From NCBI RefSeq assembly GCF_026151205.1, contig NC_087072.1, forward strand, positions 25,571,799 to 25,635,798: 64,000 nt of DNA. The letters are read 5' to 3'. Origin of the DNA: Bolinopsis microptera (lineage: Eukaryota > Ctenophora > Tentaculata > Lobata > Bolinopsidae). The notes beneath the pieces are model-generated. The model worked only from the letters and a program-made list of their open reading frames with translations. It was not told the DNA's origin and made no database searches. The position numbers and the translations under genes were made by a program. Within the stretch, counting starts at the first letter, position 1, and each line of letters begins with the position of its first letter. Shown piece after piece: positions 16,465 to 44,570 of this stretch.

Positions 16465-19400
16465 TTAACGTTTCATCTTTGCGATAGAATCATCTACTTC
16501 CTTGTACTTGGTAAAGTTGTTGACGACTCCGTTTTTCGTGATCGATTTATCGTGTCCTGGGACGGTGAAGTGAATCTGTCTGGATCGGATACCATTCCGC
16601 CTCGTCCGCATCGCTATGTACGATATAATGACCAGTGCTGCTGCACTTGCCACGGCCTGAATTTGAAAGAGGTGTTAGGTCTTCGGAAAATATGTGTTTT
16701 CTGTGTAGTGTAAGTGCACATTAATTATACACATTCTAGGAACAAAATCTTTCACAAAATTGTTATTGCAGTTTACTGCAATAACCATAAACAATGGTGC
16801 CTATCTGATTGTACACTTTCCACAATTTACTTTTCCATGTGGCTGTTACTTATTCCCATTAAATCCCAATTGGTTTATTTCTTGTTGGTTCTAGAACTGT
16901 CAAATGGTAATTCATCTTCAAAACTTACAAAGAACCAGTTATCAGTTACCAGTTACCAGTTACCAGTAACCAGCAACCAGTAACCAGTAACCAGTTACCA
17001 GTAACCAGTAACCAGTAACCAGTAACCAGTTACCGGTAACCAGTTACCAGTTACCGGTTACCAGAGTATCACTCATTACATCAGAATCGTATGAGGTGTT
17101 GTTTAATCGCATTGATAATTTGTTACTGTAACAACTGAGATGATCCGATACATCGAACATTAACACTTAATGATTGTTCAGCCGATGCTTTCTTCGGTTA
17201 ATGTAGGCGTAATCTTGTAAGTAAAAGTCTTTCAATTGAATATTGTGTATTAAATATAGTCTTACTAAACGTTGTAGGCAGTCGTTTTAATTAATTTAGA
17301 GTATTAAATCTAACTGTTGAATCTTGGCACAGGTAACATAGAGCTAATTAAATCTACCTCAAAGGACCTTGTGTCGACTGTCGACGTAGCAAATTTAGAT
17401 ACTCGGTTTGAACGTGTATACATTAACTTCTTGCTAACGACATCACACTGAATCTCAAGGTGCTACATAAGACACCTGGTGGAAACCAAATTGACTAACT
17501 CCCTTGCTCCGCATTTGACACTCAACTCTATTTCGAAATCCTGCCCGATTTAACACGTAGCAAGATGTTGTTGCTGCTTGCTTTTCTAATCAGTACAGCC
17601 GCGGGGGACTTGGCAGACCTTTCCGCGTACCATAAGTGCACCAAAGTTAATGGGATATCTGGTGCTTGCAATCTTCGTCTGAATTACTTTACACTTGCAG
17701 GTAAGGTGCTGCTCCAGCTTTGCCAAATACTCATTTTAAATTCTATTTAATTAGCGCGGTTACTGTTGAGTACTTCCTCCAGCTCAATATATTCCCCCGA
17801 CCCAGGTACTCACAACTCTGGAGCAGGAGCTAATGGGCTGCTGTACTGGTACAGTGGACTACCAGCTCCTAGCTGCCTGGTGCGGAACCAGGACAAGTCA
17901 ATCACAGAGCAGCTGGAACTAGGGATCAGATACTTCGACCTGGATCTGGCTCACATCTCAGAGGACAGTGGAGATTGGTGGGAGAAGGGTCTGGTGCTAG
18001 CTCATTGTAACGAGAATATCGGCTGTGCTTACTCCCACTCTCTTAAGAGGGCTCTGTTGGAGATTGAGGAGTTCATGGGACAAAACAGGGACGAGATAGT
18101 TCTCATACGGTTTAAAGATCACGCGGAAACTTCTAGAGAATACATCAAGAAACATATGGCTAATGAGATATTATCCATATTCCGAACATCTTCTAAAGTC
18201 AGGATCAACCCTGACTCTAATCCACGTCTGGGGGACGCCATAACCAGTAATAAGAGGCTACTTATACACACTAACGGTGGTTTCTGGATGGGCAAACCCT
18301 TTAATAGTTTGAGTCAAGTAGAATCATTCAGAGGAGGAGGGGCCACATCTGCCTGTTTCTCTAAGAAAGAAATCATGGATGTTTTTAAGAGTGATTGGTA
18401 TCGAGTAACAGACGACTACTTCCCAGTTCAGGTGATTTGGATAACTCAGCAACTGTAAAATTACGAAATTTTTAGATTTTTTAGAAATTCTAATGATGAC
18501 TGGTTTGTGATCCATAACAACATCCATTAAAATATTTCAGGTGGACTGGTATTTCACTTTTGGATTGTGCCTGTGGGACTTGGCCGGACTATGTGACGGA
18601 ACAGAGTTACACACCATTGTACAGATCAACAGGGAGCTAGTGCATGAAGCACATCGACCTGTCAACTTAGTTCTTATAGACTACGCAGGTCGAGGAGTCA
18701 CCAGACTGTCAGAATTTGTCAGGGAAATCAACGAAGAAAATGTCAAGATATTCACTTAATCTATTTTCCAAGTTACAGATAAACTGAGTTTTACTTTGTA
18801 AAGAGTAAGGGTTGAGCAGGAAAAGTAATTTAAAGTTGGTTCCAGTTTTAGGCTTTAAGTGTAAAAGAGGTATGCCTTAAAAGTGCATGATTTGCCCTTT
18901 AACAGTCACTAGCGATACCAAAATGTAAAAGGAATATTATTTACATTTTAACTCTAAATAAACAAACCTTCATTCCATACATAGACATTTCGTCCATCCA
19001 AGGATGAGCGGTCCAGGCCAGATACTGGATAATATCCTTTGCGATTTGAGACTGGTACGGGATAGTGCCTGGAAATAAAGTGAGTCAGAGGATCGTAAAA
19101 GCTATTCTGATGTATAAACTCCATATTTGATAATTCACGTTTCTTTTTTCCAGTACGAGGCAGCAACGAGTTTGATGAGTAATTAAATTCCACAGTCAAA
19201 ACAAAGCTACATATAAGAAATCCTTCTTACCATCCTCATAGTCGACAGATTCGTTGTAAAGCTGCTGCGCCATGCCGATATAGTATCCGTGGAAGTAAGG
19301 GTTATAAGCCTGTCCCTCTGCTGGCTCAGCCTGACCAGGAGGCACATCTTCGTATCCGGTCAACAGACTAAACAAGTAATCCTCGTTTCCTTCCCGAGCA

Positions 19401-22400
19401 ACATTAATCAAGGTCAGGTCAGGTGGATGGGCGCCATTGTTAGCGAGACGGGCCTTAATCTCGTTATCGTAGGGTGCCGGCATGAAGTCCTGGATGTCAC
19501 CTTGTCGTTCAATTGCGTTACCTTCATCGTCCACATCCGGATACATGTACTGAGAATTTAATTTACTTAAAATAAAAAACAACGTAGTCTCAATGTTAGG
19601 AGGATATTGTAAGTTGTAAAATTTTTCACCGAAAATGAAAGCGTACCCGAATAAAAAGTCAGCACTATTAAGTGTTGTGCTTTGGAACAATTTACACTTT
19701 ACAGTTTATCATATTATTTAATAATAAATACGTAATACGTAACAAAAGTACCTCAGCTGCCATCTCTTTAACTTCCTCCTTCGTGTGAGTCACATCAATG
19801 TGCATTCTCCAGTAGAAGTATTGCATACTGTGACATGCCTGACAAACCTCCTTGTAAACTTGGAAACCACGCCGTAATCTGTTGGATTTTATCATTAAAA
19901 TGCAATACTGAGATTATATGCATCTTAAAGATTAAAATTATAACTGGTTTGGAAAATCTTAAATTCTCAGAATAAATCTACGGAAATTCAGAAAAAGAGT
20001 ACGAACTCACGCTTTGTGGTCATACGACTTGTTCCACTCCTTGTGCTCCCAGTGCATGTGCCCGTGAGCAAGCTCCAACTCATCAGCACTAATCTGACCG
20101 TCGTTCAGAGCAACTCCAACACTGCACACAGCAGCTCCCAGCAACCCAACAAATCCATAACTCTGAAATGTTAGAATGTTATCAGAGCAACTCCAACACT
20201 GCACACAGCAGCTCCCAGCAACCCAACAAATCCATAACTCTGAAATGTTGAATGTTATCAGCAACTCCAACACTGCACACAGCAGCTCCCAGCAACCCAA
20301 CAAATCCATAACTCTGAAATGTTAGAATGTTATCAGAGCAACTCCAACACTGCACACAGCAGCTCCCAGCAACCCAACAAATCCATAACTCTGAAATGTT
20401 GGAACGTTATCAGAGCAACTCCAACACTGCACACAGCAGCTCCCAGCAACCCAACAAATCCATAACTCTGAAATGTTAGAATGTTATCAGAGCAACTCCA
20501 ACACTGCACACAGCAGCTCCCAGCAACCCAACAAATCCATAACTCTGAAATGTTAGAATGTTATCAGTGCAACTCCAACACTGCACACAGCAGCTCCCAG
20601 CAACCCAACAAATCCATAACTCTGAAATGTAGAATGTTATCAGTGCAACTCCAACACTGCACACAGCAGCTCCCAGCAACCCAACAAATCCATAACTCTG
20701 AAATGTTAGAATGTTATCAGAGCAACTCCAACACTGCACACAGCAGCTCCCAGCAACCCAACAAATCCATAACTCTGAAATGTTGGAACGTTATCAGAGC
20801 AACTCCAACACTGCACACAGCAGCTCCCAGCAACCCAACAAATCCATAACTCTGAAATGTTAGAATGTTATCAGAGCAACTCCAACACTGCACACAGCAG
20901 CTCCCAGCAACCCAACAAATCCATAACTCTGAAATGTTAGAATGTTATCAGAGCAACTCCAACACTGCACACAGCAGCTCCCAGCAACCCTACAAATCCA
21001 TAACTCTGAAATGTTAGAATGTTATCAGTGCAACTCCAACACTGCACACAGCTGCTCCCAGCAACCCAACAAATCCATAACTCTGAAATGTTAGAATGTT
21101 ATCAGTGCAACTCCAACACTGCACACAGCTGCTCCCAGCAACCCAACAAATCCATAACTCTGAAATGTTAGAATGTTATCAGTGCAACTCCAACACTGCA
21201 CACAGCAGCTCCCAGCAACCCAACAAATCCATAACTCTGAAATGTTGGAATGTTATCAGAGCAACTCCAACACTGCACACAGCAGCTCCCAGCAACCCAA
21301 CAAATCCATAACTCTGAAATGTTAGAATGTTATCAGAGCAACTCCAACACTGCACACAGCAGCTCCCAGCAACCCAACAAATCCATAACTCTGAAATGTT
21401 AGAATGTTATCAGAGCAACTCCAACACTGCACACAGCAGCTCCCAGCAACCCAACAAATCCATAACTCTGAAATGTTGGAACGTTAGCAACTCCAACACT
21501 GCACACAGCAGCCCCCAGCAACCCAACAAATCCATAACTCTGAAATGTTAGAATGTTATCAGAGCAACTCCAACACTGCACACAGCTGCTCCCAGCAACC
21601 CAACAAATCCATAACTCTGAAATGTTAGAATGTTATCAGTGCAACTCCAACACTGCACACAGCAGCTCCCAGCAACCCAACAAATCCATAACTCTGAAAT
21701 GTTGGAATGTTATCAGAGCAACTCCAACACTGCACACAGCAGCTCCCAGCAACCCAACAAATCCATAACTCTGAAATGTTAGAATGTTATCAGTGCAACT
21801 CCAACACTGCACACAGCAGCTCCCAGCAACCCAACAAATCCATAACTCTGAAATGTTAGAATGTTATCAGTGCAACTCCAACACTGCACACAGCAGCTCC
21901 CAGCAACCCAACAAATCCATAACTCTGAAATGTTGGAATGTTATCAGAGCAACTCCAACACTGCACACAGCAGCTCCCAGCAACCCAACAAATCCATAAC
22001 TCTGAAATGTTAGAATGTTATCAGAGCAACTCCAACACTGCACACAGCAGCTCCCAGCAACCCAACAAATCCATAACTCTGAAATGTTAGAATGTTATCA
22101 GAGCAACTCCAACACTGCACACAGCAGCTCCCAGCAACCCAACAAATCCATAACTCTGAAATGTTAGAATGTTATCAGTGCAACTCCAACACTGCACACA
22201 GCAGCTCCCAGCAACCCAACAAATCCATAACTCTGAAATGTTAGAATGTTATCAGAGCAACTCCAACACTGCACACAGCAGCTCCCAGCAACCCAACAAA
22301 TCCATAACTCTGAAATGTTAGAATGTTATCAGAGCAACTCCAACACTGCACACAGCAGCTCCCAGCAACCCAACAAATCCATAACTCTGAAATGTTAGAA

Positions 22401-25400
22401 TGTTATCAGAGCAACTCCAACACTGCACACAGCAGCTCCCAGCAACCCAACAAATCCATAACTCTGAAATGTTGGAACGTTAGCAACTCCAACACTGCAC
22501 ACAGCAGCTCCCAGCAACCCAACAAATCCATAACTCTGAAATGTTAGAATGTTATCAGAGCAACTCCAACACTGCACACAGCAGCTCCCAGCAACCCAAC
22601 AAATCCATAACTCTGAAATGTTAGAATGTTATCAGAGCAACTCCAACACTGCACACAGCAGCTCCCAGCAACCCAACAAATCCATAACTCTGAAATGTTG
22701 GAACGTTATCAGAGCAACTCCAACACTGCACACAGCAGCTCCCCAGCAACCCAACAAATCCATAACTCTGAAATGTTAGAATGTTATCAGAGCAACTCCA
22801 ACACTGCACACAGCAGCCCCCAGCAACCCAACAAATCCATAACTCTGAAATGTTGGAACGTTATCAGAGCAACTCCAACACTGCACACAGCAGCTCCCAG
22901 CAACCCAACAAATCCATAACTCTGAAATGTTGGAACGTTATCAGAGCAACTCCAACACTGCACACAGCAGCTCCCAGCAACCCAACAAATCCATAACTCT
23001 GAAATGTTAGAATGTTATCAGAGCAACTCCAACACTGCACACAGCAGCCCCCAGCAACCCAACAAATCCATAACTCTGAAATGTTAGAATGTTATCAGTG
23101 CAACTCCAACACTGCACACAGCAGCTCCCAGCAACCCTACAAATCCATAACTCTGAAATGTTGGAACGTTATCAGAGCAACTCCAACACTGCACACAGCA
23201 GCTCCCAGCAACCCAACAAATCCATAACTCTGAAATGTTAGAATGTTATCAGAGCAACTCCAACACTGCACACAGCAGCCCCCAGCAACCCAACAAATCC
23301 ATAACTCTGAAATGTTAGAATGTTATCAACTCCAACACTGCACACAGCAGCTCCCAGCAACCCAACAAATCCATAACTCTGAAATGTCGGAACGTTATCA
23401 GAGCAACTCCAACACTGCACACAGCAGCCCCCAGCAACCCAACAAATCCATAACTCTGAAATGTTAGAATGTTATCAGTGCAACTCCAACACTGCACACA
23501 GCAGCTCCCAGCAACCCAACAAATCCATAACTCTGAAATGTTGCAATGTTATCAACTCCAACACTGCACACAGCAGCCCCCAGCAACCCAACAAATCCAT
23601 AACTCTGAAATGTTGGAACGTTAGCAGTGGCGCAACTCCAACACTGCACACAGCAGCTCCCAGCAACCCAACAAATCCATAACTCTGAAATGTTAGAGAT
23701 GTTTATCAGTGGCGCGAAGAGCAACTCCAACACTGCACACATGCAGCTCCCAGCAACCCAACAATCCATAACTCTGAAATGTTGCAATGTTATCAACTCC
23801 AACACTGCACACAGCAGCCCCCAGCAACCCAACAAATCCATAACTCTGAAATGTTGGGAATGTTATCAGAGCAACTCCAACACTGCACACAGCAGCTCCC
23901 AGCAACCCAACAAATCCATAACTCTGAAATGTTAGAATGTTATCAGAGCAAACTCCAACACTGCACACAGCAGCTCCCAGCAACCCAACAAATCCATAAC
24001 TCTGAAATGTTAGAATGTTATCAGAGCAACTCCAACACTGCACACAGCAGCTCCCAGCAACCCAACAAATCCATAACTCTGAAATGTTAGAATTTTTTGC
24101 GGCAACCCAAAACACTGCCACAGCAGCCCCAAAACCCCCAACAAATCCAAAACTTAAAATTTTGGGAAACTTTTAGAAATCCAACACTGCACACAGAGCC
24201 CCCAGAAAACCAACAAATCCATAACCTAAAAAGTAGAATTTTTTCAGGCAACCCAACCGGGCACACAGCAGCCCCGCAACCCAACAAATCCATAATTTAA
24301 AATGTTAGAATGTTATAGGCAACTCCAACACGGGAAACACAGCGCCCCCACCCCCCAAAAAATCCAAACCTGAAATGTTAAAATTTTGGATCAGAGCAAT
24401 CCACTGCACACGCGCTCCAGCAACCCAAACAAATCCTAACCGAATGGGGGAACGTATCAAGCAACCCCAACACCCCAAACCAGCCCCAGCAACCCCCAAA
24501 CCCCTAACCGAAATGTTGAATGTTATCAGAGCAACCCCAAAACCTGCACACGCACCCGAACCCAACAAACCCAAAACCCTGAATGTTGGAAACGTTATCA
24601 GAGCAACTCCAACACTGCACACAGCAGCTCCCAGCAACCCAACAAATCCATAACTCTGAAATGTTAGAATGTTATCAGAGCAACTCCAACACTGCACACA
24701 GCAGCTCCCAGCAACCCAACAAATCCATAACTCTGAAATGTTGGGAACGTTATCAGAGCAACTCCAACACTGCACACAGCAGCTCCCAGCAACCCAACAA
24801 ATCCATAACTCTGAAATGTTAGAATGGTATCAGAGCAACTCCAACACTGCACACAGCAGCTCCCAGCAACCCAACAAATCCATAACTCTGAAATGTGGAA
24901 CGTTATCAGAGCAACTCCAACACTGCACACAGCTGCTCCCAGCAACCCTACAAATCCATAACTCTGAAATGTTAGAACGTTATCAGTGGCGCGAACTCCA
25001 ACACTGCACACAGCAGCTCCCAGCAACCCAACAAATCCTAACTCTGAAATGTTAGAATGTTATCAGTGCAACTCCAACACTGCAACAGCAGCTCCAGCAA
25101 ACCTACAAATCCATAACTCTGAAATGTGGGAATGTTATCAGTGCAACCCCAACACTGCACACAGCAGCTCCCAGCAACCCAACAAATCCATAACTCTGAA
25201 ATGTTAGAATGTTATCAGAGCACACTCAACACTGCACACTAAGCAGCTCCCAGCAATCCCAACAAATCCATAACTCTGAAATGTTAGAATGTTATCAGGG
25301 CAACTCCAACACTGCACACAGCAGCTCCCAGCAACCCTACAAATCCATAACTCTGAAATGTTAGAATGTTATCAAGTGCAACTCCAAACACTGCACACAG

Positions 25401-26897
25401 CAGCTCCAGCAACCCTACAAATCCTAACTCTGAAATGTTGGAACGTTATCAGAGCAACTCCAACACTGCACACAGACTCTCCCAGCAACCCAACAAATCC
25501 ATACTCTGAAATGTTGGAATGTTATCAGTTCAGAGCAACTCCAACACTGCACACAGCAGCTCCCAGCAACCCAACAAATCCAGAACTCTGAAATGTTAGA
25601 ATGGTTTCAGTGCAACTCCATCCACTGCACACAGCTGCTCCCAGCAACCCAACAAATCCATAACTCTGAAATGTTGCAATGTTATCTACTGCCAACACTG
25701 CACACTGCTGCTTCCAGCAACCCACAAATCCATAACTTCTGAATGTAGATGGTTATCAGTGGCAACTCCAACACTGCACACAGCAGCTCCCAGCAACCTA
25801 GCAAATCCATAACTCTGAAATGTTGGAACGTTATCAGTGGGCGCGAAGAGGACGGTCAATCAGATAGCGGCAGCACGTTAGTTTGAAGTAGGATGAATGT
25901 ATAAACCAACAAGTTTTTGGGACTGGGAGATGAGGAAAGCAACAGCTGGAATGTCGACAAATTTGTTCCGGATGTGAGATAGCTGGAACTTTACCATGAA
26001 GGAGCTACTCATATTATTAGTCTGTTTTTAATCCTTTTTTAAAAACAACAGCGGACATATTTCCTATGAAGGGGTAAAGATAAACTAGGAACTCAGAAGT
26101 CGTATTGATTTTTATGAAGAAGGCACCTGTCATGTCACGTAACCATGATCGAGTAGAGTCTCATTACCGCGCGTCAAATACGCGCGTAACGTGATGCTAA
26201 AATTTCACTCTCGCTACAACTTACAAACTGTGCGTTTTCCATGACGTAGAGTGAAAATTTCCGACCTTCTAGACATAGGTCTATTTTTCGGAGAGAAAAC
26301 TCGTTAAAAATTTAAGAAATTCATAGACTCGTGGAATATAAATAACATAGATTGAAAAAACTTGTCGCAAAACATATCTAGTAAATCGAAATGCTGAATG
26401 CTTCATGTTTGATTAAATTTTCCGTCGACAGGAACGAATAATTTTCAGAGTTTTGGATAACCGTTAGCTACGATGACTTAAATACCATGCTAAACTCACA
26501 TAGTTGAATTTGGGACCAGAACCACCTGATTGGCCGCCTTGTCTCCAACCAGAAAAACTAGGAAGGAATGCTCTCTGAAAATAGACCTGGTTAGCAAGTT
26601 AGTGGTATTTACGCTGACTGAAATCTTTTAAAAAGATAAAGCAAAGATTGCTAGAATGATTTGCATGCCAAGTTGACTTAATATCAGAGTACACTGTATA
26701 CACTACAGTATACTCTGCACTGTATACACTGGTATACACAGTATACACGAACCGAGGTTTGTGCAAAATTGCGAGAGGACGTTTGAGCCAACAAGCGGGT
26801 ACACTGAGATATCAGAGTCATCCTACTAGGAGAGGGTTAGTAAGTAAACTGAATTAAAACTCAAAGTAACAAGACAATTTACACGCGCTGAATTCAT
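16465..26897 (-). CDS. CYC1: Cytochrome c1, complex III haem subunit
   Basis: The haem-bearing subunit of the ubiquinol-cytochrome c reductase complex in the inner mitochondrial membrane; it passes electrons to cytochrome c. Exons on the minus strand: 26897-26883 (15 bases, tentative), 26574-26500, 20162-20011, 19878-19752, 19549-19231, 19068-18968 and 16656-16465. All phases fit, giving 326 residues (human: 325). Visible landmarks: a hydrophobic presequence segment GFVGLLGAAVCSVGVAL, LRRGFQVYKEVCQACHS with the CxxCH haem site, NNGAHPPDL, EDYLFSLLTGY, NPYFHGYYIGMAQ with the axial Met, QIAKDIIQYLAW, and the C-terminal anchor AVASAAALVIISYIAMRTRR. The tail after the anchor is longer than in vertebrates. 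The last intron (18967-16657) encloses a complete PI-PLC-like gene on the other strand. The intron before 20162 carries the 77-base array derived from that exon. The first tiny exon (MNSAR) is the weakest part of the model. Confidence 0.9.
16935..17065. repeat. Heptamer repeat CCAGTAA/CCAGTTA
   Basis: About 18 tandem 7-base units alternate between CCAGTTA and CCAGTAA, with two CCGGTAA/CCGGTTA variants. Adjacent units create the word TAACCAGTTA. It lies in the last intron of cytochrome c1, 0.5 kb upstream of the nested gene. Confidence 0.85.
17565..18759 (+). CDS. Secreted PI-PLC X-domain protein
   Basis: Three exons in consistent phase: 17565-17700, 17806-18431 and 18541-18759, with introns of only 105 and 109 bases; 326 residues. 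A signal peptide (MLLLLAFLISTAAG) suggests secretion. The PI-PLC X-domain pattern is clear: GTHNSGA with the first catalytic His (about residue 48), QLELGIRYFDLDLAH with the Asp-rich strand, LAHCNENIGC with the second His, and NLVLIDYAGRG near the end. Known relatives cleave phosphatidylinositol or are inactive PLCXD-type proteins; substrate and activity cannot be read from the sequence. The whole gene lies inside the last intron of cytochrome c1, on the opposite strand. The start ATG is chosen because it begins the signal peptide. Confidence 0.85.
20163..25838 (-). repeat. 77-base minisatellite from a CYC1 exon start
   Basis: About 74 head-to-tail copies of a 77-base unit lie in the second intron of cytochrome c1. 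Read on the minus strand, each unit carries CTAACATTTCAG (a 3' splice acceptor) followed by the first 57 coding bases of the exon that starts at 20162 (SYGFVGLLGAAVCSVGVAL), then ATAACATT and the next acceptor. The true exon departs from the repeat after GTTGCTCTGA. The array copies have no donor site, and their frame reaches TAA soon after the duplicated segment. Variants (AGAGC/AGTGC, AGAATG/GGAACG) recur in blocks, indicating multi-unit duplications. Open frames on either strand are by-products of the repeat. Confidence 0.92.
24090..24590. repeat. Degraded patch within the 77-base array
   Basis: About six units here have many base changes and indels, mostly extra C and A or missing T and G, whereas units on both sides are almost perfect. 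That abrupt change is more typical of poor consensus sequence inside a collapsed repeat than of evolution. Confidence 0.6.
25839..26499. other. CYC1 intron sequence
   Basis: Non-repetitive intron DNA between the minisatellite and the second coding exon of cytochrome c1. Nothing else is recognised. Confidence 0.5.
26690..26755. repeat. Cluster of GTATAC palindromes
   Basis: Four GTATAC words and related GTATACT/GTATACA words sit in about 65 bases, making several overlapping short inverted repeats. It lies in the first intron proposed for cytochrome c1, near its presumed promoter. Confidence 0.5.
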
Positions 26898-27114
26898 CTC
26901 ATGATTGTTTTTCTGATTATTTTACTTTTCTGAAAATCGATGATAAAACAATAAAATACGCAAAATTAAGACCAATTTATCCATTACAACAATAGATACT
27001 AAAAAGTGTGTCAACTGAAATAGAAAACGCTTCGTCAATATGCTATGCATTATGCATTATATCACAAAATGATAATTATAATAATATAAGAAATCAACAT
27101 TTGTTACCAATTTA

Positions 27115-28678
27115 TCAATCTGAATCACTATCTGAATCATCAACTTTGAAAGGATCAAACTCGGTAAAAGATTTTCTGTACTGCTTAACTAATGTTCCTC
27201 TTGCTCTTAGATATTTTACATTCCTTCCAGCTAACTCTCCCTGGGCATATTGAGCAGTTCCTCAGATGCCAACACTTCCTGCCGAACTGAAGAGGAACCG
27301 GACTTTCTGAGAACACAAAAACACAGGTTTATCCGGTTTTCAAACTCAGCAATGAAGTAATCACTTCCAGGAGGTACCATTCCTTCCAATCCTCACCAAC
27401 CGGTATTTCCTGTACCTCTAGGTTATACTTATCAGCAAAGGTATAGAACACGTCCTTAATGTCGTTGACCGAGTACCGGGATACAGGTACAGCCTGTATC
27501 TGCATGTGTGACGTGGACAGACTGCGCTCAAAGAACACTGTCGGTTGATTTCTTGTTTGGTTCTGTTCAGGGTTCTTAAAGCTCGTTTGAACTTTTTCTA
27601 CGTCTTCTTGCTGGTTTGGTTCCAAGAATTGCGAACTTTAATGTGGTGGTCGGGACAATCATTACGGGGTCGTTGCTTAATGCGCCTTTTGCAAGCGCTA
27701 AATACATGCGAAGCACCAACAGATAGGACTAAATGTTGCTCAACATTTGGTGATTTCAAAACAGAACAGCAACATCTCTTTCTTCTTCTCCGTGCTGTCA
27801 GCACCACCGGGTGCAGCAGGTCATCTTGCGCTTGTCACCCCGTGCTGTAAAAGTGCTGCGGCTTCAAATCTCTACTTTGTTTTGCTCTTTTCAACCTCAA
27901 TGTAAGGGTTTTCTGTGGTTTCTGCAGGTTGTTTTCTCAGTTCCGCATCAGTAAGGTGTTTCATGGGAACGTAATTTAAAGCATACAACCACTACTCTTA
28001 GTTTTTATTTCCTGCACAGTCTAAGGAAAGGAAACGAGTACAATACGTTGCTTTCTCGTGCAGGATCTTGTGGTTGCGGTAGGGGAGTCGCTCATAGTAC
28101 GGGCCTGATACGAAGTGATACCGAGGTTTTATGGTGTTGACAAGATGTGACAACTCAGGAATACCCTCGGGTACTTTAAAATCTGGTTTTTTAACGTACC
28201 TCAGGACATCAGAGGGCCACTGACTAGTGATGAGAATATCAATACCATTCATAACACCTGACTGAGCCTGTAGAATGTTCAGATCTGTTTCAGTGTAACA
28301 GTGAGGCTCATTTGACATGCCATCTCCGAACACACCACTGATATAAGCTATAGATAATCCGTTAGGTGGTTGTGTACACACCTCTCCGTCCTAAATAAGT
28401 CACATTTTCTGTAACCTCCCCGTCTACCAATATGCGAGAAATAAGCGGTATGTGACTCTTTTGTAGCACCTAAAATATAAGTGGGAACATCCAGCTTGTA
28501 AGTGCCATCTCTGAGACTGAGCCAGGACTCAGCGTTATCTCCGATCACATGACCAGGGATGAGGAGAAGGTGAAATGGGCCCACTTTTTGAGTTGACAGT
28601 GTTTACACGTGAACAGAGCTGTTTGAAGTTTCCTTGCACACTTCCAGCCACCAGGATCTTCAGAGTTTCCTTTGACAT
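27115..28678 (-). pseudogene. CWF19L1: CWF19L1-like, intronless and frameshifted
   Basis: Collinear similarity to the whole of CWF19-like protein 1, a splicing-associated protein with a metallophosphoesterase-like N-terminus and a HIT-like CwfJ C-terminal domain. It starts MSKETLKILVAGSVQGNF. Further pieces in changing frames include LDVPTYILGATKESHTAYF, VTENVTYLGRRGV, IKPRYHFVSGPYYERLPYRN, TDAELRKQPAETTENPY, LKSPNVEQHLVLSVGAS, SHMQIQAVPVSRYSVNDIKD, PGSDYFIAEFEN and a C-terminal FTEFDPFKVDDSDSDSD before TGA. At least six frame changes or in-frame stops separate them, and there is no intron in 1.56 kb, about the length expected for the full coding sequence. Either it is a retrocopy/pseudogene or the assembly has clustered indels here. 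No poly(A) tract follows the stop, which does not favour a young retrocopy. Confidence 0.75.
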
Positions 28679-33390: not shown

Positions 33391-34110
33391 ACCCCCACGG
33401 TCGTTTCACTGTATCGTCCTGAGGATACAGGGGGAGCAACGCACTCGTGCGCGGCGGGTCATACAACGTATGACAACTAACTGCTAGGCTGCCAACTGTT
33501 GCTCACTGCTGCAGTTAGTTAGCAGCAGTTTTATGCATGTTTTACTGTGTACTGCGTAGCGCACGACGCGTTCACATAGTACATGTATAGCCATGTGTCT
33601 AAACATACTGCGTGACGCGCTTGTTTCACGCGCTTATACTGCAAGCAAGAGGGCTCTGGTTAGAGCAACACGACGCGCGCAACTTTTGAAAACGGCTGCT
33701 CACTGCCGCTAACTGCTGCCCACTGCTGCTAACTGCTCCAAATAGCGCGTGCTTGTAAAACGATATTTCAGCTGTTCATGCTTTAGGATTCGAGTCAGTT
33801 TTTGTTTTAAAGTAATTGTGAAAATAGTATCAAGTATAAATATTTAAAATACAGATAATTTAACAATAATTAAATGTTTTCAATCCCTCACAGCTTGTAG
33901 CGCGATGCGTTACTAGTGTGCCGCGCCGAGCTGAGATGAATTGACATCGTCAATTAACTCACAGCTAGCTCGTATCGGTTCATAGTATAGTTATAGTACT
34001 AAATGCATACGTTGCGATATGTGGTTGCGATTAACGTTATATATTTGATGCAAGACTCCTTTATCGTCCTGACGATACAGGGGGAACCGCGCACTCGTGC
34101 GCGGCGGGGG
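33390..34110. repeat. CpG-rich dispersed repeat, copy 1
   Basis: Contains TATCGTCCTGAGGATACAGG and ACGCACTCGTGCGCGGCGGG near its left end, and almost the same pair again at 34065-34110, so the segment is bounded by direct repeats of about 50 bases. Between them are CTAACTGCTGC-type words (33480-33740) and GTAGCGCGATGC. Related sequence recurs at 46735-47280. It ends exactly where the 91-base satellite starts. Confidence 0.5.
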
Positions 34111-37100
34111 CTAATATTAAATACTAGTGGACTCTATGCAGGTCTCCCAGCGCCCCTAATTTTACTGATCTGGAGGTCACATTTTATTGAGCCAGTACAG
34201 GCTAATATTAAATACTAGTGGACTCTATGCAGGTCTCCCAGCGCCCCTAATTTTACTGATCTGGAGGTCACATTTTATTGAGCCAGTACAGGCTAATATT
34301 AAATACTAGTGGACTCTATGCAGGTCTCTCAGCGCCCCTAATTTTACTGATCTGGAGGTCACATTTTATTGAGCCAGTACAGGCTAATATTAAATACTAG
34401 TGGACTCTATGCAGGTCTCCCAGTGCCCCTAATTTTACTGATCTGGAGGTCACATTTTATTGAGCCAGTACAGGCTAATATTAAATACTAGTGGACTCTA
34501 TGCAGGTCTCCCAGCGCCCCTAATTTTACTGATCTGGAGGTCACATTTTATTGAGCCAGTACAGGCTAATATTAAATACTAGTGGACTCTATGCAGGTCT
34601 CCCAGCGCCCCTAATTTTACTGATCTGGAGGTCACATTTTATTGAGCCAGTACAGGCTAATATTAAATACTAGTGGACTCTATGCAGGTCTCCCAGCGCC
34701 CCTAATTTTACTGATCTGGAGGTCACATTTTATTGAGCCAGTACAGGCTAATATTAAATACTAGTGGACTCTATGCAGGTCTCCCAGCGCCCCTAATTTT
34801 ACTGATCTGGAGGTCACATTTTATTGAGCCAGTACAGGCTAATATTAAATACTAGTGGACTCTATGCAGGTCTCCCAGTGCCCCTAATTTTGCTGATCTG
34901 GAGGTCACATTTTATTGAGCCTATGCAGTATATGCAATTCTGTTTTAGACATTGAATTTATTTAAAAAAGGTCTCAGCGCCCCTAATTTTACTGATCTGG
35001 AGGTCACATTTTATTGAGCCAGTACAGGCTAATATTAAATACTAGTGGACTCTATGCAGGTCTCCCAGTGCCCCTAATTTTACTGATCTGGAGGTCACAT
35101 TTTATTGAGCCAGTACAGGCTAATATTAAATACTAGTGGACTCTATGCAGGTCTCCCAGCGCCCCTAATTTTACTGATCTGGAGGTCACATTTTATTGAG
35201 CCAGTACAGGCTAATATTAAATACTAGTGGACTCTATGCAGGTCTCCCAGCGCCCCTAATTTTACTGATCTGGAGGTCACATTTTATTGAGCCAGTACAG
35301 GCTAATATTAAATACTAGTGGACTCTATGCAGGTCTCTCAGCGCCCCTAATTTTACTGATCTGGAGGTCACATTTTATTGAGCCAGTACAGGCTAATATT
35401 AAATACTAGTGGACTCTATGCAGGTCTCCCAGTGCCCCTAATTTTACTGATCTGGAGGTCACATTTTATTGAGCCAGTACAGGCTAATATTAAATACTAG
35501 TGGACTCTATGCAGGTCTCCCAGCGCCCCTAATTTTACTGATCTGGAGGTCACATTTTATTGAGCCAGTACAGGCTAATATTAAATACTAGTGGACTCTA
35601 TGCAGGTCTCCCAGCGCCCCTAATTTTACTGATCTGGAGGTCACATTTTATTGAGCCAGTACAGGCTAATATTAAATACTAGTGGACTCTATGCAGGTCT
35701 CCCAGCGCCCCTAATTTTACTGATCTGGAGGTCACATTTTATTGAGCCAGTACAGGCTAATATTAAATACTAGTGGACTCTATGCAGGTCTCCCAGTGCC
35801 CCTAATTTTACTGATCTGGAGGTCACATTTTATTGAGCCAGTACAGGCTAATATTAAATACTAGTGGACTCTATGCAGGTCTCCCAGCGCCCCTAATTTT
35901 ACTGATCTGGAGGTCACATTTTATTGAGCCAGTACAGGCTAATATTAAATACTAGTGGACTCTATGCAGGTCTCCCAGCGCCCCTAATTTTACTGATCTG
36001 GAGGTCACATTTTATTGAGCCAGTACAGGCTAATATTAAATACTAGTGGACTCTATGCAGGTCTCCCAGTGCCCCTAATTTTGCTGATCTGGAGGTCACA
36101 TTTTATTGAGCCTATGCAGTATATGCAATTCTGTTTTAGACATTGAATTTATTTAAAAAAGGTCTCAGCGCCCCTAATTTTACTGATCTGGAGGTCACAT
36201 TTTATTGAGCCAGTACAGGCTAATATTAAATACTAGTGGACTCTATGCAGGTCTCCCAGTGCCCCTAATTTTACTGATCTGGAGGTCACATTTTATTGAG
36301 CCAGTACAGGCTAATATTAAATACTAGTGGACTCTATGCAGGTCTCCCAGCGCCCCTAATTTTACTGATCTGGAGGTCACATTTTATTGAGCCAGTACAG
36401 GCTAATATTAAATACTAGTGGACTCTATGCAGGTCTCCCAGCGCCCCTAATTTTACTGATCTGGAGGTCACATTTTATTGAGCCAGTACAGGCTAATATT
36501 AAATACTAGTGGACTCTATGCAGGTCTCTCAGCGCCCCTAATTTTACTGATCTGGAGGTCACATTTTATTGAGCCAGTACAGGCTAATATTAAATACTAG
36601 TGGACTCTATGCAGGTCTCCCAGTGCCCCTAATTTTACTGATCTGGAGGTCACATTTTATTGAGCCAGTACAGGCTAATATTAAATACTAGTGGACTCTA
36701 TGCAGGTCTCCCAGCGCCCCTAATTTTACTGATCTGGAGGTCACATTTTATTGAGCCAGTACAGGCTAATATTAAATACTAGTGGACTCTATGCAGGTCT
36801 CCCAGCGCCCCTAATTTTACTGATCTGGAGGTCACATTTTATTGAGCCAGTACAGGCTAATATTAAATACTAGTGGACTCTATGCAGGTCTCCCAGCGCC
36901 CCTAATTTTACTGATCTGGAGGTCACATTTTATTGAGCCAGTACAGGCTAATATTAAATACTAGTGGACTCTATGCAGGTCTCCCAGTGCCCCTAATTTT
37001 ACTGATCTGGAGGTCACATTTTATTGAGCCAGTACAGGCTAATATTAAATACTAGTGGACTCTATGCAGGTCTCCCAGCGCCCCTAATTTTACTGATCTG

Positions 37101-40100
37101 GAGGTCACATTTTATTGAGCCAGTACAGGCTAATATTAAATACTAGTGGACTCTATGCAGGTCTCCCAGCGCCCCTAATTTTACTGATCTGGAGGTCACA
37201 TTTTATTGAGCCAGTACAGGCTAATATTAAATACTAGTGGACTCTATGCAGGTCTCCCAGTGCCCCTAATTTTGCTGATCTGGAGGTCACATTTTATTGA
37301 GCCTATGCAGTATATGCAATTCTGTTTTAGACATTGAATTTATTTAAAAAGGTCTCAGCGCCCCTAATTTTACTGATCTGGAGGTCACATTTTATTGAGC
37401 CAGTACAGGCTAATATTAAATACTAGTGGACTCTATGCAGGTCTCCCAGTGCCCCTAATTTTACTGATCTGGAGGTCACATTTTATTGAGCCAGTACAGG
37501 CTAATATTAAATACTAGTGGACTCTATGCAGGTCTCCCAGCGCCCCTAATTTTACTGATCTGGAGGTCACATTTTATTGAGCCAGTACAGGCTAATATTA
37601 AATACTAGTGGACTCTATGCAGGTCTCCCAGCGCCCCTAATTTTACTGATCTGGAGGTCACATTTTATTGAGCCAGTACAGGCTAATATTAAATACTAGT
37701 GGACTCTATGCAGGTCTCTCAGCGCCCCTAATTTTACTGATCTGGAGGTCACATTTTATTGAGCCAGTACAGGCTAATATTAAATACTAGTGGACTCTAT
37801 GCAGGTCTCCCAGTGCCCCTAATTTTACTGATCTGGAGGTCACATTTTATTGAGCCAGTACAGGCTAATATTAAATACTAGTGGACTCTATGCAGGTCTC
37901 CCAGCGCCCCTAATTTTACTGATCTGGAGGTCACATTTTATTGAGCCAGTACAGGCTAATATTAAATACTAGTGGACTCTATGCAGGTCTCCCAGCGCCC
38001 CTAATTTTACTGATCTGGAGGTCACATTTTATTGAGCCAGTACAGGCTAATATTAAATACTAGTGGACTCTATGCAGGTCTCCCAGCGCCCCTAATTTTA
38101 CTGATCTGGAGGTCACATTTTATTGAGCCAGTACAGGCTAATATTAAATACTAGTGGACTCTATGCAGGTCTCCCAGTGCCCCTAATTTTACTGATCTGG
38201 AGGTCACATTTTATTGAGCCAGTACAGGCTAATATTAAATACTAGTGGACTCTATGCAGGTCTCCCAGCGCCCCTAATTTTACTGATCTGGAGGTCACAT
38301 TTTATTGAGCCAGTACAGGCTAATATTAAATACTAGTGGACTCTATGCAGGTCTCCCAGCGCCCCTAATTTTACTGATCTGGAGGGTCACATTTTATTGA
38401 GCCAGTACAGGCTAATATTAAATACTAGTGGACTCTATGCAGGTCTCCCAGTGCCCCTAATTTTGCTGATCTGGAGGTCACATTTTATTGAGCCTATGCA
38501 GTATATGCAATTCTGTTTTAGACATTGAATTTATTTAAAAAAGGTCTCAGCGCCCCTAATTTACTGATCTGGAGGTCACATTTTATTGAGCCAGTACAGG
38601 CTAATATTAAATACTAGTGGACTCTATGCAGGTCTCCCAGTGCCCCTAATTTTACTGATCTGGAGGTCACATTTTATTGAGCCAGTACAGGCTAATATTA
38701 AATACTAGTGGACTCTATGCAGGTCTCCCAGCGCCCCTAATTTTACTGATCTGGAGGTCACATTTTATTGAGCCAGTACAGGCTAATATTAAATACTAGT
38801 GGACTCTATGCAGGTCTCCCAGCGCCCCTAATTTTACTGATCTGGAGGTCACATTTTATTGAGCCAGTACAGGCTAATATTAAATACTAGTGGACTCTAT
38901 GCAGGTCTCTCAGCGCCCCTAATTTTACTGATCTGGAGGTCACATTTTATTGAGCCAGTACAGGCTAATATTAAATACTAGTGGACTCTATGCAGGTCTC
39001 CCAGTGCCCCTAATTTTTACTGATCTGGAGGTCACATTTTATTGAGCCAGTACAGGCTAATATTAAATACTAGTGGACTCTATGCAGGTCTCCAGCGCCC
39101 CTAATTTTACTGATCTGGAGGTCACATTTTATTGAGCCAGTACAGGCTAATATTAAATACTAGTGGACTCTATGCAGGTCTCCCAGCGCCCCTAATTTTA
39201 CTGATCTGGAGGTCACATTTTATTGAGCCAGTACAGGCTAATATTAAATACTAGTGGACTCTATGCAGGTCTCCCAGCGCCCCTAATTTTACTGATCTGG
39301 AGGTCACATTTTATTGAGCCAGTACAGGCTAATATTAAATACTAGTGGACTCTATGCAGGTCTCCCAGTGCCCCTAATTTTACTGATCTGGAGGTCACAT
39401 TTTATTGAGCCAGTACAGGCTAATATTAAATACTAGTGGACTCTATGCAGGTCTCCCAGCGCCCTAATTTTACTGATCTGGAGGTCACATTTTATTGAGC
39501 CAGTACAGGCTAATATTAAATACTAGTGGACTCTATGCAGGTCTCCCAGCGCCCCTAATTTTACTGATCTGGAGGTCACATTTTATTGAGCCAGTACAGG
39601 CTAATATTAAATACTAGTGGACTCTATGCAGGTCTCCCAGTGCCCCTAATTTTGCTGATCTGGAGGTCACATTTTATTGAGCCTATGCAGTATATGCAAT
39701 TCTGTTTTAGACATTGAATTTATTTAAAAAAGGTCTCAGCGCCCCTAATTTTACTGATCTGGAGGTCACATTTTATTGAGCCAGTACAGGCTAATATTAA
39801 ATACTAGTGGACTCTATGCAGGTCTCCCAGCGCCCCTAATTTTACTGATCTGGAGGTCACATTTTATTGAGCCAGTACAGGCTAATATTAAATACTAGTG
39901 GACTCTATGCAGGTCTCCCAGTGCCCCTAATTTTACTGATCTGGAGGTCACATTTTATTGAGCCAGTACAGGCTAATATTAAATACTAGTGGACTCTATG
40001 CAGGTCTCCCAGCGCCCCTAATTTTACTGATCTGGAGGTCACATTTTATTGAGCCAGTACAGGCTAATATTAAATACTAGTGGACTCTATGCAGGTCGCC

Positions 40101-40292
40101 CAGCGCCCCTAATTTTACTGATCTGGAGGTCACATTTTATTGAGCCAGTACAGGCTAATATTAATACTATAGTGGACTCTATGCAGGTCTCCCAGTGCCC
40201 TAATTTTGCTGATCTGGAGGTCACATTTTATTGAGCCTATGCAGTATATGCAATTCTGTTTTAGACATTGAATTTATTTAAAAAGGTCTCAC
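34110..40292. repeat. 91-base satellite with 1191-base higher-order repeat
   Basis: About 67 tandem monomers of 91 bases (start GCTAATATTAAATACTAGTG). Every thirteenth monomer is a 99-base variant in which the middle is replaced by TATGCAGTATATGCAATTCT and TTTAGACATTGAATTTATTT. The variants fall near 34921, 36111, 37302, 38493, 39682 and 40236, so the period of 1191 is twelve normal monomers plus one variant, until the last block is cut short. Copies of the 1191 block are almost identical and even share single-base variants (CTCTCAGCG, CCCAGTGCC, TTTTGCTG) at the same places. The right-hand edge is itself the variant sequence running into unique DNA. Confidence 0.93.
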
Positions 40293-41339: not shown

Positions 41340-42240
41340 ACTGTTCCTACATTTTTTTTAGTAATTACCCCCCATCAGTATTAACTCTCGTCTTCATCAG
41401 TGTAACTACATTTTTTTTCTAGTTATTCTCCCACCAGTATCAAATCTCTGTCTCTCAGTTTAAACCCACATTTCTCTCAGTAGTTATTCTCCCACCATTT
41501 TAATCCGTCTTTATCAGGGTTTTTACATTTCTCTCAGCATTATTCTTCCCCCAGTATTAAATCTTGTCTTCGTCAGTGTTATCTTTATATCCCCCAGTAC
41601 TACCCCCCCCACCAGTATTAAATCCTGTCTTTATCAGTGTAACCTACATTTTCTCAAGTATCTTTCCCCTCAGTTTTAACTCTCTGTCGCATCAGTGTTT
41701 CTCTACATTTCTCTCAATTAGTTTTTCCCCACTCAGTATTAACTCTCGTCTTTTTTCAGTGTTACTCATATTTACCCCAGTAGTTTCCTCACATGAGATT
41801 AACTTCGTCTTGGCAGTGTTACCTATATTGCTCAGTAGTTATTTTTCCCACTCGTATTAACTCTCGTCTTCGCAGTGTTACTCTCATTTTGCTCAGAGTT
41901 ATTCTCCCCAGTTTCCACTTAGTACAATCTCGTCTTTCCGTGTTATTTACATTTCCCCAGTAGTTATTTCCCCTCAGTGTTTTAAATCTCTGTCTTCATC
42001 AGTTTACTCAGACATTTCCTCAGTAATTTTTCTCCCACCAGACAATCTCTGTCTTCATCATGAACCTACTTTCTCTCTATTATTCTCCCCCCTCAGTATT
42101 AACTCTCTTCTTTATCATGTTTCTCACTTTCTTCAGCATTATTCTTCCCCTCAGTAATTTTCCCAGTCTTCGTCATGTTACTCTATATTTACCAGTAGTT
42201 TTCTCCCACTCAGTATTTAAATCTCGTCTTCATCTTTTCT
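41340..42240. repeat. Degenerate pyrimidine-rich minisatellite, block 1
   Basis: Repeated words CAGTATTAACTCTCTGTCTT, CATCAGTGTTACTCTACATT and TCAGTAGTTATTCTCCCAC define a unit of about 65 bases. Every copy differs by small indels, mostly in homopolymers. The open frames through it are not genes. Confidence 0.7.
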
Positions 42241-43540
42241 TTGTAGGGGCAGGGTTTTTTTACAAGGAATAATCAAAAAACCCTTAAGAGGACATTTAAG
42301 CCCCCGTGCTTACCCCGGGACATTAAACTGTAAGAAAACAAGGGTTAAGCCTTGTCCTCTCCACATTTGGAAAACGTTTGTTTCTTGTATAAACCCGGTC
42401 CCTTTGGGAAAGAAAATTTTCCCCTATTCTTTCCACGGGGTAGGAGTCAAAATATCCCCTCGTGGTAAGACCATTTCGGGGGACGACCCAAAAAAGTGGT
42501 TCTTGTCTCCCCTTTCATGAGACAGGTGGACGGTTTTTTGGGCCGTTGTCGGGTTTACTTATTTATGGGTAGTTTGTTCACAAAGTCCCCCGAGGAATTG
42601 TGTTGCTGTTCTTGTGCTCTCTTTGCCAAGTTTCGGGATTGTCTGGCGAATTTTTTTCCAACCGTTTTAAAGTGAGTGTGGGGTAAAATTTCCCTTTCCC
42701 TCATCTTCCGATGACTTATACCCGCAGGCTCCCTTCCATAATACTTTTTGGGATTGGTAGTTGCACTTGGCGGGGCCAGATTTTTGGGGGGCCCCTTTTT
42801 TTGGGAAAGAGTCTGCCCTTTTTTTGCCATGAGCCTTTGGGGGTGGTATCCATGAGAGGACTTTGATTGTCCCTTGCTATTTGGGTTTAGCTCCTTATAG
42901 CCGGGTGTGTTTAGATTGATTTGATGTTTTCCCTTGCCTTATTGTCGCCCGGCTATGATTTTGTTATTTTTCAGTTTTGGTCCAGATTCCCCAATATTTT
43001 GCCGCATGCCTACGGAAAGTTTTGGCCGGAAGCGGTTTAGTTTTATTCCCAGGTGGTTTGACTCCCCCACTGTGGGGTTTTCGTTGCCACAATTACACTC
43101 CGCCCCAACTTTTCATTCATTTTGGAGCCGCGTGTAAATTGTTAGTATTGGTGTCATTTTCGATTCCTCATACTCAAGAGTCGGGGAATTTTCTGTGTTT
43201 AAACCAATGTCAACATTCATGTGTTTTTTTGACTTGTCCCTTTAGAGTTGAGACTGATAGCCTTTAGTAACTGTTTATTAAATTTTGTGTGGGTGGTTAG
43301 GTTCCCTTTTTTGTTTACCCGCTCTATATCCATGGTTTTGGATTTGGTCGGGGAGCCGCTGCTCCCCCTTCCATCACCCGATCAAAGGATGATTCCGGTG
43401 ATGATGTCTATGCTGCTCCGGGGTCGAGGTAACCCTCCGTTTTGAGGATGTTCCCCACCGCTGTACACTGCTAAGGTTGTTAGGTTAGTTTTTTGGACCA
43501 CCATTGAGCCAATTGTCGCAGCGTAGAAGAAGGTCTGACA
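42241..43540 (-). mobile_element. Possible retroelement gag remnant
   Basis: On the minus strand, around 42830-42555, a Lys/Arg-rich stretch with YKSHRK-type, HTHFKTVGKKFARQ and RNLAKRAQEQQHNSS words resembles, in shifting frames, the zinc-knuckle end of a retrotransposon Gag protein. No intact knuckle, protease or reverse transcriptase is readable. The homopolymers look distorted, so this is a weak call. Confidence 0.25.
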
Positions 43541-43544
43541 ACGG

Positions 43545-44570
43545 CTGTATAAATATATACTCGTCTTCATCATGTTTCCTAGACATTCCTTCAGAATTAT
43601 TCTCCCCCTCGTATTTAACCTCTGTCTTCGTCAGTGTTACTCTAATTTTCCCCCAAGTATTCTTCCGCTCAGTATCAACCCCTGTTTCATCAGTGTTATT
43701 CTACATTTCCCTCATTTATTCTCCCACTCAGGTTAAATCTCTGTCTTCTCAATGTTTCTCTAGAATTTCCCTCATAATTTATTTTTCCACCAGTATCAAC
43801 TCTCTGCTTCTCAGTGAACCTACATTTTTTCAATTTTCCCACCAGTATTTTAATCTTGTCTTTATCGTGTTACTCTACATTTCTCTCAGCAGTATTTTCC
43901 ACCATATTAACTCCGCTTTGCAGTGTTACTTAATTTCCTCATATTATTTCCCCCAACTGTTAACTCCATCTTCATCAGTATTCTCTAACTTTCCTTCCAG
44001 AATTTTTTTTCCCACACTATTAACTCTCTGCCTTCATCAGGTTAAAACTACATTTTCCCCCATAGTTTTTCTCTCATTTTTGGTAACTCTCTGTCTTTAC
44101 AGTGTAATTACATTTCTCCAGAGTTATTCTCCCACTCATTTAACTCTCTGTCTTTATCAGTGTTTCCACATTTCTCTCCAGTTTTCTTTACCAGTATTAA
44201 CCTCTGCCTTGTCAGTTTTTCCTATATTTTCCCCCGTAGTTTTTCCCAAACGTGTTTAAACCCCTATCTTCTCAGTGTTTTAGACATTTTCCCTCAAATT
44301 ATTCTCCGACTCATATCAACTCCTGTTTCATCAGTGTAAATCACATTTTTCTCAGTATTTTTTCCCCACCAGTATTAACTCTCGCTTCACATGTTACTCT
44401 ACATTTTCTCACATTATTTTTCCACTCAGTATTAACTCTCTGACAAGTGACAATAGTAACGCACTATTTTCTTCAAAAAAGTAGACCAAGGGTTTTCCCC
44501 TTTTCCTCTCCGAGAACAGAAAATACTCTCTGTCTTGTCAGGTTACTTATATTTAGCTCAGTAGTTACTC
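43545..44570. repeat. Degenerate pyrimidine-rich minisatellite, block 2
   Basis: The same family as 41340-42240, resuming after a 1.3-kb interruption, again with copy-specific indels. The 251-codon frame at 43504-44259 is only the absence of stops in pyrimidine-rich sequence. Confidence 0.7.

Follow-up and report, generated by a model that had tools for sequence, protein, structure and literature searches.

In a 64,000-nucleotide stretch of the genome of the ctenophore Bolinopsis microptera (C1:25571799-25635798, where C1 is contig NC_087072.1; hereafter the window), the start of a cytochrome c1 exon and the splice acceptor in front of it are repeated in tandem about 75 times. We consider it probable that the repeat is a "mirage", as minisatellites formed from an exon-intron boundary are called, and that it arose by duplication, grew by expansion and is tolerated through exon definition and nonsense-mediated decay. 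We favour this reading because of the anatomy of the array, an array-free intron with the same acceptor surroundings, and the CTGA found at both edges of the duplicated piece. It is further favoured by the variants that neighbouring units share, by an open reading frame from the last acceptor only, and by a coding sequence in which 11 of 13 differences between two gene copies are synonymous and none is an insertion or deletion (indel). Finally, similar structures occur at other genes, and the mirages of amphioxus are reported to be harmless to splicing.

A repeated acceptor and exon start in cytochrome c1

The initial annotation had assigned the gene to cytochrome c1, and this is borne out by PF02167, which matches all three exons downstream of the array, one of them with 122.3 bits (curated cut-off, 22.8). 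The gene extends past the exons listed here, with its first coding exon farther upstream and its 3' end farther downstream. The parts of the gene to which we refer are the following.

26500-26574, minus strand: upstream coding exon, with donor GTGAGTTT (exon and frame reading)
20163-26499, minus strand: intron with the array, 6337 nt; 666 nt in the second gene copy (acceptor and frame analysis)
20105-25837, minus strand: 77-bp units repeated in tandem about 75 times, each with about 57 nt of exon start and about 20 nt of intron end including the acceptor (Tandem Repeats Finder, unit listing, genome matches, acceptor count)
about 24090-24590, minus strand: about 0.5 kb of degraded array units resembling uncorrected sequence (sequence reading; one 577-nt unsplit stretch in the unit listing)
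20011-20162, minus strand: exon duplicated in its first part, with its true acceptor at 20162/20163 and donor GTGAGTTC following 20011 (only acceptor giving an open frame)
18968-19878, minus strand: three downstream exons (19752-19878, 19231-19549, 18968-19068) and their intervening introns (PF02167; exon ends read)

Tandem Repeats Finder described the array with a period of 77, 75.1 copies and a score of 9291. This agrees with the anatomy first proposed, an acceptor and some 57 nt of exon start repeated in front of the true exon, and approximately with the count of about 74 units given there. On the coding strand each unit consists of the exon start, AGTTATGG...GTTGCTCTGA, followed by the intron end, TAACATTCTAACATTTCAG; the intron part contains a branch-point-like sequence and TTTCAG and finishes with ...TTCTAACATTTCAG. 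We counted 67 exact acceptors (ACATTTCAG followed by AG) in the array, the first at 25814 and the last, which is the true one, at 20162. As in mirages, the repeat therefore spans an exon-intron boundary, and splice signals are part of the unit.

Next, we compared one unit with the whole assembly (264.65 Mb in 232 contigs). This search returned at least 74 matches: 73 in the array, the exon-adjacent copy included, and a single one outside it, 58 nt long and 98% identical, at the homologous exon of another cytochrome c1 gene (C1:25261755). All of these counts are lower bounds. The repeat is thus specific to this exon among the matches obtained. A dispersed repeat family is not supported, and neither is the possibility, raised in the initial annotation as grounds for abandoning its proposal, that the repeat occurs at many unrelated loci.

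Sequence variation among units also argues for a real array. Adjacent units had variants in common more often than in shuffled order at lags 1-3 (p 0.002, 0.002 and 0.006; 70 of 73 segmented units, in a slightly shifted register), as would be the case in a real array but not with random read error. The figure of 75 copies is nevertheless an uncertain estimate, because the assembly is noisy at this place: the degraded units at 24090-24590 look like uncorrected sequencing error, and a neighbouring gene is rich in indels.

We examined the consequences of using each acceptor by joining the exon to the upstream exon. The frame was open from the acceptor at 20162 only, and a stop was met from the other 66 of 67, in keeping with the stop-codon argument made at the outset. 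The exon would be 152 nt long with the last acceptor, 229 nt with the next, then 303 nt and so on, up to 5804 nt with the first. When the last acceptor was used, both gene copies gave one open frame of 774 nt through all five listed exons. The units had been called pseudo-exons, a description that does not hold: no 5' splice site within the unit is credible (the best donor scores 2.4, with p 0.94 versus shuffles; here and in the minisatellite survey below, the donor matrix uses frequencies taken as general background), so that copies could only lengthen the exon on its 5' side and not form separate exons.

The duplicated piece encodes SYGFVGLLGAAVCSVGVAL, a hydrophobic segment ahead of the cytochrome c1 domain. 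It had been taken for the hydrophobic part of the presequence; hydrophobicity and position stand, and the sequence is consistent with a sorting segment, which we presume its role to be.

An array-free copy of the same intron

The second cytochrome c1 gene lies at about C1:25261755-25262943, on the opposite strand and 0.33 Mb away. Its intron at the same place has a single acceptor preceded by TTCGCGCCACTGATAACGTTCCAACATTTCAG, and the intron in the window is about tenfold longer. In the window, TTCGCGCCACTGATAACGTTCCAACATTTCAG with one base more stands in front of the outermost array copy, and from this shared flank it follows that the array grew by tandem expansion within an intron that was already there. 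The second copy is therefore a natural empty site for the array. Intron gain by tandem genomic duplication is rejected, since the array-free copy already has the intron. The edges of the duplicated piece have CTGA in common (GCCCTGAACG in the exon, CACTGATAAC in the intron), and judging from this junction such a short homology could have seeded the first duplication.

The gene is part of a larger duplicated block.

1-32579 of the window, no strand assigned: block present a second time, inverted and without the array, at C1:25255070 to about C1:25285600 (genome comparison)

The second block aligns, inverted, with the window from 32579 down to 1 and onward to about C1:25563054. Collinear pieces of the two blocks are about 88-97% identical, neither stretch contains N, and upstream of the array substitutions between copies amount to 0.0-4.4% per 250-bp bin. 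Two near-identical gene copies, haplotypes or paralogues, thus have one acceptor and about 75 array copies, respectively. Retained haplotypes are a plain possibility for the two blocks on these similarities, with paralogues as the alternative. For comparison, the overall single-nucleotide heterozygosity of another ctenophore, Hormiphora, is given as 2% in one genome report (PMC8527503). Other arrays of the block differ in length as well: a 19-bp repeat (L014, 5193-6796) has 84.2 copies versus 15.2 in the inverted copy, and a 47-bp repeat is similar in both (4.2 versus 4.0).

The two gene copies differ at 13 coding sites, 11 of which are synonymous (amino-acid changes as few as these have P = 1.2e-6), and there are no indels between them in these exons. 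By this comparison the pair of cytochrome c1 copies has been under constraint. The claim that an essential gene must always choose the last of its acceptors is weakened: only the last acceptor leaves the frame open, but the same assembly contains a cytochrome c1 gene without the array.

Origin of the array and choice of acceptor

Exon definition and nonsense-mediated decay are general knowledge, and on this background we propose the following course of events. A tandem duplication would have joined exon to intron across the shared 4-nt CTGA and thereby copied the intron end and the exon start; the junction is seen in the sequence. Slippage or unequal exchange may then have expanded the 77-bp unit to about 75 copies and lengthened the intron from about 666 to 6337 nt, as its present structure suggests. 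Exon definition would pair the donor after 20011 with the nearest acceptor, at 20162, and yield the normal 152-nt exon, while acceptors farther upstream would define ever longer exons, from 229 and 303 nt onward. Any other intact acceptor adds a premature stop with further exons downstream, and such errors would consequently be removed by nonsense-mediated decay. On this view the array would be an incidental outcome of minisatellite mutation that the gene tolerates, the cost to expression being quantitative at most.

The following points weigh against this proposal. Foremost, the first acceptor of the array lies 685 nt from the upstream donor, near the 666-nt length of the array-free intron, and a first-come rule would therefore favour the wrong acceptor. 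Both amino-acid differences between the gene copies fall in one exon, exon A. Finally, coding constraint neither dates the array nor, without an outgroup, assigns constraint to one copy.

It is unlikely, in our assessment, that the gene with the array is silent or on its way to being lost, with the array persisting because the protein comes from the array-free copy and this one no longer matters. An intact second gene with a single acceptor does exist, and the CwfJ-domain (CWF19L1-like) gene next to the array (window about 27000-28600) is full of frameshifts, with 26 single-base indels in 1476 nt relative to its intact inverted copy. However, the exons of cytochrome c1 in the window are open and free of indels, and their differences are mostly synonymous; moreover, the single-base indels of the neighbour, where substitutions are about as few, resemble read error rather than decay and are probably uncorrected sequencing error in an unpolished assembly. 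Were the two copies haplotypes, each would have to be functional in some animals. Alternatively, the assembly could have inflated an array that the animal has in much shorter form or not at all, in a haplotype that was badly resolved and perhaps misplaced. The degraded stretch and the indel-rich gene would fit such an artefact, as would the resemblance of the inverted near-identical block on the same contig, and of a near-identical pair of loci on C2, to retained haplotypes; a BUSCO duplication rate of 4.7% is given for B. microptera in the genome literature (PMC11797021). Against it, unit variants that are linked and similar between neighbours are unexpected from read error, both flanks align with the other copy, similar arrays are present at other loci, and even in a misplaced haplotype the array itself would be real. 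We regard an artefact as very unlikely.

The array could also act as a length-dependent brake on splicing, in which competition among acceptors diverts some of the transcripts to decay and array length tunes the level of cytochrome c1. For such a role there are dozens of intact acceptors that would introduce a stop if used, and array length differs between the copies, as it does for other arrays of the block. The same variation in arrays of other kinds, though, speaks for plain mutation, and the sequences compared give no sign that the array is conserved; a brake thus seems very unlikely. Trans-splicing is described as widespread in ctenophores (PMC8527503), and an array of trans-splice acceptors was considered for this reason. 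It is unlikely because trans-splicing of a leader to an acceptor in the array would leave the upstream exons out of the transcript.

Boundary arrays at other genes and in other animals

The window contains a second boundary array, of the donor type, and an additional donor family was found elsewhere on the same contig.

60749-61041, plus strand: donor-type array; exon end ...YSEEERKLNLKAR then GTATGTAAC; 48 bp x 2.2, then 19 bp x 11 (Tandem Repeats Finder, sequence reading)
C1:36576 and C1:761375: 32-bp donor family (donor-triple matches listed)

Two frames neighbouring the array at 60749-61041 had no Pfam match. Genome-wide, triples of the donor octamer AGGTAAGT were far more frequent than those of the reversed octamer, both at gaps of 8-38 (498+762 = 1260 versus 11+0) and at gaps of 39-69 (800+718 = 1518 versus 1+1), and the single octamer and its reverse were about equally common (4 versus 3 in 244 kb). 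Because these counts include overlapping matches in long arrays, they indicate an excess of such arrays and not a number of loci. Triples of the acceptor octamer TTTTCAGG numbered 220+153 = 373 versus 36+57 reversed, but the single octamer was itself commoner than its reverse (20 versus 7 in 244 kb), and the matches listed were dominated by two copies of one locus on C3.

We took donor and acceptor families from the first places of the 1260, 1518 and 373 matches. Among the matches listed there were at least seven donor families, and of the six that were read, four lie at coding exon ends (L026, L027, L035/L036 and L037). For the other two (L028; L029 with its copy L030), no exon including the repeat was found in a reading limited to open frames, with no family search. 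In an ADAM gene, 8.2 donor units sit at the exon end GEECDCGTEE, with reprolysin before the array and disintegrin and ADAM_CR after it, all above cut-off. An Img2/MRPL49-like gene has 43.7 units at VPPYPVRTVVNK followed by a GTAAGT donor; the exon after the array matches Img2 below the curated cut-off (E 4e-5), and the exon before it matches nothing. A sushi-domain gene (54-bp spacing, C1:428574-430927) has one exon before the array that scores below cut-off and two after it that score above. In a dynein-heavy-chain-like gene, two exons that precede a short array match successive parts of AAA_9, each with a score below cut-off. The dynein-like exon at L037 484-1014 (C1:884200-886600) also contains an in-frame internal tandem duplication beside its short donor-type array. 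At L029 1500-2031 and L030 1268-1324 (C2:2665400 and C2:2722400), two near-identical loci 57 kb apart carry a 19-bp repeat upstream of an open frame, in 28.0 and 3.0 copies.

Three acceptor families were seen and read among the matches listed (L031/L032, L033 and L034), and none was confirmed as a coding exon start, with no Pfam search made for them. One of these (L031 and L032; C3:10522198-10525883, with a second copy from C3:10725660) is a 47-bp array of units in which TTTTCAG is followed by GACAGCAATG, each with an acceptor and an ATG. From its sequence this array might consist of trans-splice acceptors ahead of a start codon.

A general enrichment of donors in minisatellites was not supported. 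Only 5 of 55 arrays had a donor at p < 0.05 versus shuffles: 2 of 26 in ten 10-kb samples at round coordinates that we chose, 2 of 16 in and around the second block, and 1 of 13 in the window with a 10-kb neighbour, the last two sets sharing homologous arrays. Most minisatellites here are therefore not of the boundary type. Two further repeat regions were observed in the window. An array of 91 bp x 66.9 occupies 34109-40237, outside the duplicated block and 1.5 kb from its end, and no exon or splice boundary was seen at its edges; at 41371-44438 there are degenerate 58-59-bp tandem repeats, 63-78% alike and rich in ACTCAG-like pyrimidine tracts. A ligand-binding segment of an ionotropic glutamate receptor (L011) had its best matches in ML032222a (129.8 bits) and 4zdm (90.5 bits), which we take to be from Mnemiopsis and Pleurobrachia, respectively, and the next was CG3822 (74.9). 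This result makes a ctenophore genome very probable and led us to reject an amphioxus origin; amphioxus genomes are, moreover, larger than this one. Two other such receptors, used as longer queries with which full-length chains score higher, matched no ctenophore-named chain among the best 60 of 387 and 60 of 245 matches.

Structures of this kind have been described in other animals; Canestro 2002 is reportedly cited for the mirages of amphioxus. Those in Adh3, the globins BflGb6 and BflGb9, TnC and PGBD5 are presented as minisatellite-like tandem duplications of an exon-intron boundary that come in a 5' and a 3' type and whose units contain splice signals; the BflGb6 mirage has 6 and 3 copies between haplotypes, and regular splicing is reported as undisturbed (PMC3087553, PMC3902484). 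The cytochrome c1 array shares with these accounts the tandem boundary units with splice signals, here of the 3' type and accompanied by donor-type arrays at other genes. It differs from them in its ctenophore host, its roughly 75 copies and the array-free copy of the same intron, and it is known from genomic sequence alone. The minisatellite of human IFI6 (6-16), which carries repeated donor sites used for protein isoforms (Turri 1995, as cited in PMC4526556), is likewise a minisatellite with repeated splice sites inside a gene, although in our case the sites are acceptors and splicing to the other copies would yield a truncated protein. Intron changes in human duplicated genes have been ascribed to internal tandem repeats at exon-intron boundaries (PMC2812944), and intron gain to tandem genomic duplication (PMC4974935, PMC2891723). 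Tandem repeats alter intron structure in these last two cases, whereas here the intron pre-existed in the array-free copy and only grew. Within the open-access papers searched, we found no report of such boundary arrays in ctenophores.

By its anatomy, the array would belong to the known mirage-type structures, found here far from amphioxus in the animal tree and with unusually many copies. A bolder view, which we offer tentatively and regard as unlikely, is that a recurrent mutational process in ctenophores makes long boundary minisatellites at 5' and 3' sites, housekeeping genes included, that the spliceosome chooses among their dozens of near-identical sites under a strict exon-proximal rule, and that their length may tune expression. 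Splice-site choice is usually studied with few competing sites. Here, 67 near-identical acceptors, one donor, an array-free copy of the intron and donor-type counterparts constitute a natural test of that choice, and they make testable whether order of transcription, closeness to the donor or the size of the exon decides which of the equal sites is used. These findings suggest that boundary minisatellites arise beyond amphioxus, in a distant animal lineage, and that they are a route by which introns grow while the protein remains unchanged.

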